64,000 bases of DNA from an uncultured Pelagibacteraceae bacterium (GTDB lineage Bacteria > Pseudomonadota > Alphaproteobacteria > Pelagibacterales > Pelagibacteraceae): contig CABZDR010000001.1 of assembly GCA_902524535.1 (NCBI GenBank), positions 310,001-374,000 on the forward strand. The letters are read 5' to 3'. Under the pieces are notes generated by a model. That model saw only the letters and a list, made by a program, of their open reading frames with translations. It made no database searches and was not told where the DNA came from. A program made the translations under genes and the position numbers. Positions 11,570 to 12,231 of this stretch are shown here, one piece after another (the stretch's first letter is position 1; each line of letters opens with the position of its first letter).

Positions 11570-12130
11570 ATGATTTCAAAAATTTTAATAATTTATGAAT
11601 ATCAAATTTTATATAAGATATTAAGTGAAATTAAAGAATATTTAAATTTTGAAATTTTAGATGTTGATAAAAATAAATTCCAAGAATTAAAATTTGACAA
11701 ATTTGAAAATTACATAATTGTGAGTTCAGTAAAACCTATTAATTATAAAAATAGTTTTGTTTTAGAAAATTTGCCGATTAAAATAGATAAATTGATACAA
11801 ACAATAAATATAAATTTTTTAAAGAAAAATTTTATTAAAAATTCCGATGTAAAAATTGGTAAATATAAACTTGACTTAAACTCTAGAAAAATAATTTTAG
11901 ACAATTTAAGTCTAAGTTTAACAGAAAAAGAGCTTGAAATGATTATTTTTATAAATTCAAACAGCAATGTAACTATTAAAGAATTACAAAATAATGTTTG
12001 GGGCTATTCATCAAATCTAGAAACTCATACTGTAGAAACTCACATTTACAGACTAAGAAAAAAAATGAAAGATAAATTTGGAGATGATGTATTTATTCGA
12101 AATTCACAAAAAGGATATAAGATAAATTGA
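11570..12130 (+). CDS. OmpR-type winged-helix regulator with degenerate receiver domain
   Basis: A 186-aa protein. Residues about 95-186 form a clear Trans_reg_C winged helix: SLTEKELEMIIF, LQNNVWGY, HTVETHIYRLRKKM and SQKGYKIN match the OmpR/PhoB DNA-binding domain. The first 90 residues occupy the place of a receiver domain but lack the acidic pair after beta-1 and an obvious phospho-acceptor Asp, and no histidine kinase gene is adjacent. It may act as a phosphorylation-independent regulator. Its TGA stop overlaps the TTG start of the ArfA-like gene. Confidence 0.82.
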   Translation: MISKILIIYEYQILYKILSEIKEYLNFEILDVDKNKFQELKFDKFENYIIVSSVKPINYKNSFVLENLPIKIDKLIQTININFLKKNFIKNSDVKIGKYKLDLNSRKIILDNLSLSLTEKELEMIIFINSNSNVTIKELQNNVWGYSSNLETHTVETHIYRLRKKMKDKFGDDVFIRNSQKGYKIN

Positions 12131-12231
12131 AAAAAAATCCTGTAGCCAAGACTCTATCAAATAGAAAATTTAAACCAAAGATTATCAAACCAAAAAAAGG
12201 AAAAGGTAGTTTTAAGAGAAAAAAAAATTAA
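12127..12231 (+). CDS. arfA: ArfA-like alternative ribosome-rescue factor (34 aa)
   Basis: A short open frame whose product contains KFKPKIIKPKKGKGSFKRKK. The KKGKGSY/F-(K/R)RK core following an F-(K/R)-P/Q-(K/R)-V/I segment is the signature of ArfA, which lets release factor 2 free ribosomes stalled on non-stop mRNA. The N-terminal NPVAKTL also resembles alphaproteobacterial ArfA. The start is TTG within ATTGA, overlapping the stop of the upstream regulator, a layout used repeatedly in this window. The TAA stop shares TTAA with the convergent kinase gene. The gene has its own stop codon, unlike E. coli arfA, whose message is cleaved before the stop. Confidence 0.75.
   Translation: MKKNPVAKTLSNRKFKPKIIKPKKGKGSFKRKKN

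Follow-up and report, generated by a model that had tools for sequence, protein, structure and literature searches.

ArfA of E. coli frees ribosomes that are stuck on broken messages. In the solved complexes, residues 33-38 of the protein sit in the mRNA channel (PMC5378476, PMC6299226), and Phe25 packs into an RF2 pocket that includes Val198 and Phe217 (PMC6299226). A form of 47 amino acids suffices for E. coli ArfA, further shortening inactivates it, and so does the substitution A18T (PMC5378476); the protein also fails with some foreign RF2s (PMC6881298). A published survey found ArfA confined to some beta- and gamma-proteobacteria (PMC6881298). In another, none of 2,376 Alphaproteobacteria possessed ArfA (PMC11633108); ArfB is the known backup in that class. 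Our search of the literature on ArfA together with SAR11 yielded a pelagiphage paper as the sole relevant report (PMC12753301).

The window, by which we mean the whole stretch of DNA that was analysed (64,000 nucleotides), belongs to the genome of an uncultured Pelagibacteraceae bacterium, assembled as 1.11 Mb in 7 contigs. This bacterium is a member of SAR11, which is among the most abundant bacterial groups of the ocean. The original prediction placed in the window an unannotated, very short ArfA-like gene with a coupled TTG start and a TTAA common to this gene and the convergent one. Both overlaps are present at the ends of the frame, here termed arfA (Table 1). The TTG is the sole ATG, GTG or TTG situated 5' of the core within the open frame, whose product reads (L/M)KKNPVAKTLSNRKFKPKIIKPKKGKGSFKRKKN (34 residues). 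The upstream regulator and arfA are probably co-transcribed, and translation of arfA would occur by coupling to the regulator.

Table 1. Features of the arfA locus in window coordinates, and of two related genes on other sequence records.
Feature	Location	Strand	Remarks
arfA, short ArfA homologue, 34 aa	12127..12231	+	TTG start, TAA stop, 34 codons + stop
TTGA, arfA start overlapping the TGA of the regulator	12127..12130	+	4-base overlap, recurs in many relatives
TTAA, arfA stop (+) and kinase stop (-)	12228..12231	.	4-base overlap
Regulator 5' of arfA, 186 aa	11570..12130	+	OmpR-type winged-helix DNA-binding domain (Trans_reg_C)
Convergent PfkB-family carbohydrate kinase, 309 aa	12228..13157	-	context marker
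KKGKGS core, residues 23-28	12193..12210	+	by alignment, corresponds to residues 33-38 of E. coli ArfA
Phe15	12169..12171	+	by alignment, equivalent of E. coli ArfA Phe25
GKG-less ArfA-like gene, e.g. MSKKRKKVKKKNPMAKLLSSPMLRNKIVKNKKKIYNRKKFKLGNE	L265:1480-1617 (G062)		also L279, L282, L284, L287, L288
Pelagiphage HTVC027P gp30, 58 aa	L246:15768-15944		deposited as hypothetical protein

The Pfam ArfA model (PF03889) recognizes the translated 34-mer with 27.1 bits at a cut-off of 25.5 and is the only Pfam family matched, in agreement with the predicted ArfA-like identity. The genome-scan variant of this search gives the frame 24.9 bits, just below the same cut-off, and none of the NCBIfam models matches the product, even at E = 10. 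When the 34-mer was compared with the PDB by phmmer, six chains of E. coli ArfA ranked first, weakly (E 0.02-0.06); a profile of the genus retrieves the E. coli ArfA chains with E values of ~2e-6, and no other matches. PF03889 is matched by all 29 genus members at E <= 0.1, the position of Phe15 is occupied by F or Y in every one of them, and alignment A1 reveals K23, K24, G25, G27, S28 and R31 to be invariant. A leave-out profile, constructed from 26 genus members and containing neither the window sequence nor the two rows that follow it in alignment A1, assigns 55.0 bits to the frame, compared with a maximum of 10.3 in the 40,264 frames of 20 Markov-resampled windows, and has no other match in the window at E values up to 10. 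Within the same genome, PF03889 has its second-best match at C1:547467 (13.1 bits); this match contains an internal stop and was judged to be due to chance. That the protein belongs by descent to the ArfA family is well supported.

At E <= 0.01, PF03889 matches in 32 of 61 related genomes, two of which (G040 and G043) have the match within 366-codon frames and look like chance. Of the 397 genomes of the order, 288 have a match to the genus profile (E <= 0.001), among them 116 of the 151 that are of good quality; one family accounts for nearly all of these matches. The original prediction suggested, as a check, a search for this frame behind the regulator in other strains. The frame is conserved in relatives: an arfA frame is situated at the same place in 119 SAR11 loci, of which 117 also have the regulator and 113 the kinase. 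The start sites in these loci were set by rule (the nearest ATG, else the nearest TTG or GTG, 5' of the core), giving 98 ATG, 15 TTG and 6 GTG starts; the lengths of 34-45 residues are therefore estimates. Over all pairs, the pN/pS of arfA is 0.19; moderately diverged pairs give a value of 0.24. In comparison with three moderately diverged relatives (L054, L056 and L058), none of 2,000 randomisations gave as few amino-acid changes, and the closest relatives (L014, L053 and L055) show too few changes to judge selection. arfA is under purifying selection, and the frame is a real and conserved gene for an ArfA homologue; its genome has RF2.

The gene is not fixed in the genus. In 17 sampled congeners without arfA, the convergent kinase follows the regulator immediately, separated from it by no more than a few tens of bases. 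On a tree of the kinase and nth, parsimony requires a minimum of four losses, with the gene present at the root; the sampling was non-random, and one of the clades has a weak support of 0.378. Since a considerable minority of congeners cleanly lack it, arfA is best described as an accessory, predicted backup rather than a fixed component.

The genome encodes further rescue machinery as well. An alpha-type permuted tmRNA with the tag ANESYALAA is present, together with SmpB, RF1 and RF2, the last carrying the SPF and GGQ motifs. A PF00472 search for RF-1-domain proteins, uncontrolled for ArfB, found at most two full-length proteins per genome in 61 and 24 further genomes, none of them ArfB-sized; a third match in G007 is an open-frame fragment. 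As there is no third RF-1-domain protein, ArfB was not found in this genome, in 60 relatives or in the 24 further genomes, and for this reason ArfA is probably the sole known backup to tmRNA-SmpB in the SAR11 genomes searched. ArfB (YaeJ) shares with the SAR11 protein only the proposed role as a backup to trans-translation; it has a GGQ domain of its own, whereas the 34-mer contains no GGQ.

Residues 2-32 of the SAR11 protein align without gaps to residues 12-42 of E. coli ArfA. The two have in common the KKGKGS(Y/F)xRK core, the aromatic residue at the position of Phe25 and the presence of RF2 in the genome. In contrast to the E. coli protein of 72 amino acids (about 55 when processed), the SAR11 form comprises 34, which is below the 47-residue minimum, a property of the E. 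coli protein and not of the family. It lacks the residues before E. coli position ~11, which belong to the N-terminal minidomain by which RF2 opening is ordered; a Lys that is invariant across the SAR11 set stands at the position of Ala18, and the protein ends at its own stop just past the core. The genomic setting differs as well, as the SAR11 gene is alphaproteobacterial and adjoins the regulator and kinase genes, whereas E. coli arfA adjoins mscL. The ArfT of Francisella tularensis resembles the SAR11 form in being very short (40 amino acids), often missed by annotation and not regulated, in the manner of ArfA, through termination and cleavage by RNase III (PMC6299226). ArfT, however, has KKGGSTNKK and no aromatic residue at the position of Phe25, where the SAR11 form possesses KKGKGSF and Phe15, and it works with RF1 or RF2 (PMC6299226).

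By analogy with the solved complexes, the basic tail of SAR11 ArfA would enter the vacant mRNA channel and the middle segment would dock on RF2, which would then release the peptide. The core, the aromatic residue at position 15 and the RF2 pocket support the view that the protein probably works as an ArfA. Ribosome binding, RF2 recruitment, a backup role and constitutive expression are inferred, as would be an action exactly like that of E. coli ArfA, with which the missing N-terminal residues, the Lys at the position of Ala18 and the length below the 47-residue minimum do not agree. The loss of the N-terminal region and the Lys at the position of Ala18 would also suit a lineage-specific basic peptide that descends from ArfA and binds the ribosome or RNA, having lost RF2 recruitment; a basic tail of the KGKGS type could by itself bind rRNA, and arfA has been lost repeatedly. 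Against such a peptide, purifying selection has kept the RF2-docking aromatic residue and the entire mRNA-channel segment, and the pocket residues of RF2 are kept too, with hydrophobic Ile and Phe at the positions of Val198 and Phe217 when aligned to E. coli RF2. Moreover, ArfT is a working rescue factor at 40 amino acids (PMC6299226), and thus small size alone does not rule out activity. We consider an RF2-independent peptide unlikely.

According to the original prediction, the gene has its own stop codon instead of a cleavage-controlled message, and the comparison of loci agrees. The stop is located 4-16 residues past the KGKGS(F/Y) core in 119 of 119 loci, exactly 5 residues past it in 86. 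Unlike in E. coli arfA, no RNase III-type hairpin or terminator was found: folding of 20 loci gave a mean z-score of +0.55, so there is no hairpin of the type that sets up the E. coli cleavage, and a search for a terminator-like site in these loci found none. E. coli-style switching by an RNase III hairpin or a terminator was rejected for lack of signal in the 20 loci. The arfA message would be complete, with its own stop and without a cleavage hairpin; because of these two features, the protein is probably made constitutively and not induced by failure of trans-translation.

Antisense pairing of the arfA mRNA with the convergent transcript is possible, and it would allow another mode of control, in which an ArfA-like function would still be switched by trans-translation: the kinase transcript would pair with the arfA mRNA, RNase III would cut the duplex and most of the message would be non-stop. 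The two genes converge with stops that overlap or nearly touch in most loci, no terminator-like site lies between them, and E. coli arfA also overlaps the convergent mscL with antisense effects (PMC10070815). Such a switch is nevertheless improbable, as the frame contains no hairpin, the stop position is conserved, and several loci keep the arfA frame unchanged although their kinase stop is about 400-670 bases distant. That the frame arose by chance, or represents the 3' end of the regulator in a different reading frame, as its very short, low-complexity, AT-rich sequence and alternative start codon could suggest, has a negligible probability in view of the score of 55 bits, where shuffled sequence reaches no more than 10.3, the selection on amino acids, the conservation of arfA beside a regulator whose identity is just about 37-60% in most relatives, and its clean absence as a unit from other genomes. 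The preferred explanation as a whole, namely a very short ArfA gene translated by coupling, which serves as the sole known backup of tmRNA-SmpB and is probably constitutive, appears highly probable to us.

Related short proteins that lack the GKG motif occur in some Alphaproteobacteria and follow the pattern NPxAKxLxxPKYxxxVVKxKK-YxRK (alignment A3). Their profile retrieves the E. coli ArfA chains from the PDB with E of about 1e-4 and matches alignment A1 with 97.3% probability, values that the common Lys-rich composition may inflate. In a clade of 11 SAR11 genomes without arfA, a GKG-less gene is situated between photolyase-like and glutamine amidotransferase genes in all six genomes inspected (Table 1). 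It was not found near the photolyase in the stretches fetched from four genomes with arfA (G000, G012, G036 and G068), in three of which the photolyase had no identified amidotransferase gene next to it; a search of the whole G000 genome found no GKG-less gene either. As the profile of the GKG-less family also retrieves E. coli ArfA, these observations suggest that the GKG-less gene replaced arfA in this clade. All six positives fall in one clade and represent one evolutionary event, so the pattern alone cannot prove functional replacement. Neither type of ArfA was found in G063, nor in the whole 1,308,759 bases of G066 (8,000 masked); G066 has no ArfB either and would depend on trans-translation alone.

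We also note that members of DUF7230 (L251, L252, L253 and L243) resemble the GKG-less relatives of ArfA. As a name for all alphaproteobacterial GKG-less relatives, DUF7230 was rejected: its model matches in only 3 of 289 genomes and would cover them partially at most. DUF7230 (PF23876) may itself be an unrecognised ArfA-like family. Sporadic ArfA-like frames of the GKG type were observed in other Alphaproteobacteria (L233, L234, L237 and L239).

Phages carry related genes. Gp30 of pelagiphage HTVC027P, grown on HTCC1062, was called ArfA by its authors (PMC12753301). It shares the NP(V/I)AKxxxTxKY-KPKKGxGSFKR core with SAR11 ArfA and differs from it in being phage-encoded and in carrying about 25 additional residues at the N-terminus; its score to PF03889, 20.2 bits, is below the Pfam cut-off. 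A tblastn search of the 34-mer against phage records gave no matches, even though the HTVC027P copy is in the collection, probably because the low-complexity filter of BLAST removes the Lys-rich sequence. In a profile search, many marine viral contigs contained short and fused ArfA-like frames. Some IMG/VR contigs (L137, L138, L148, L168, L170, L171 and L177) carry short, stand-alone ArfA genes nearly identical to the SAR11 chromosomal form, and in others (L140, L141, L151, L155, L160 and more) the core lies inside phage proteins of roughly 100-145 amino acids. These larger proteins have a common C-terminal segment, GNYTKP..RK.LF..IKAG.KGG.PGQWSARKAQ; one phage protein of 138 amino acids with the ArfA core scores 29.5 bits to PF03889.

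A wider picture can be proposed tentatively, in which SAR11 and other Alphaproteobacteria would harbour a hidden ArfA superfamily: a minimal KKGKGS form, which one SAR11 clade would have swapped for a GKG-less form at a different locus. Lineages like G066, with neither form, would be dependent on trans-translation, and their phages would bring their own ArfA. Automatic annotations of such frames may already exist in sequence databases. The near-universal occurrence of an ArfA of 34-45 residues in a family without ArfB, missing from a minority of congeners, alters the published map of ArfA. The SAR11 form is a natural minimal ArfA, which bears on how little protein turns RF2 into a release factor independent of the stop codon, and the congeners without arfA provide natural material for asking what the backup is worth.
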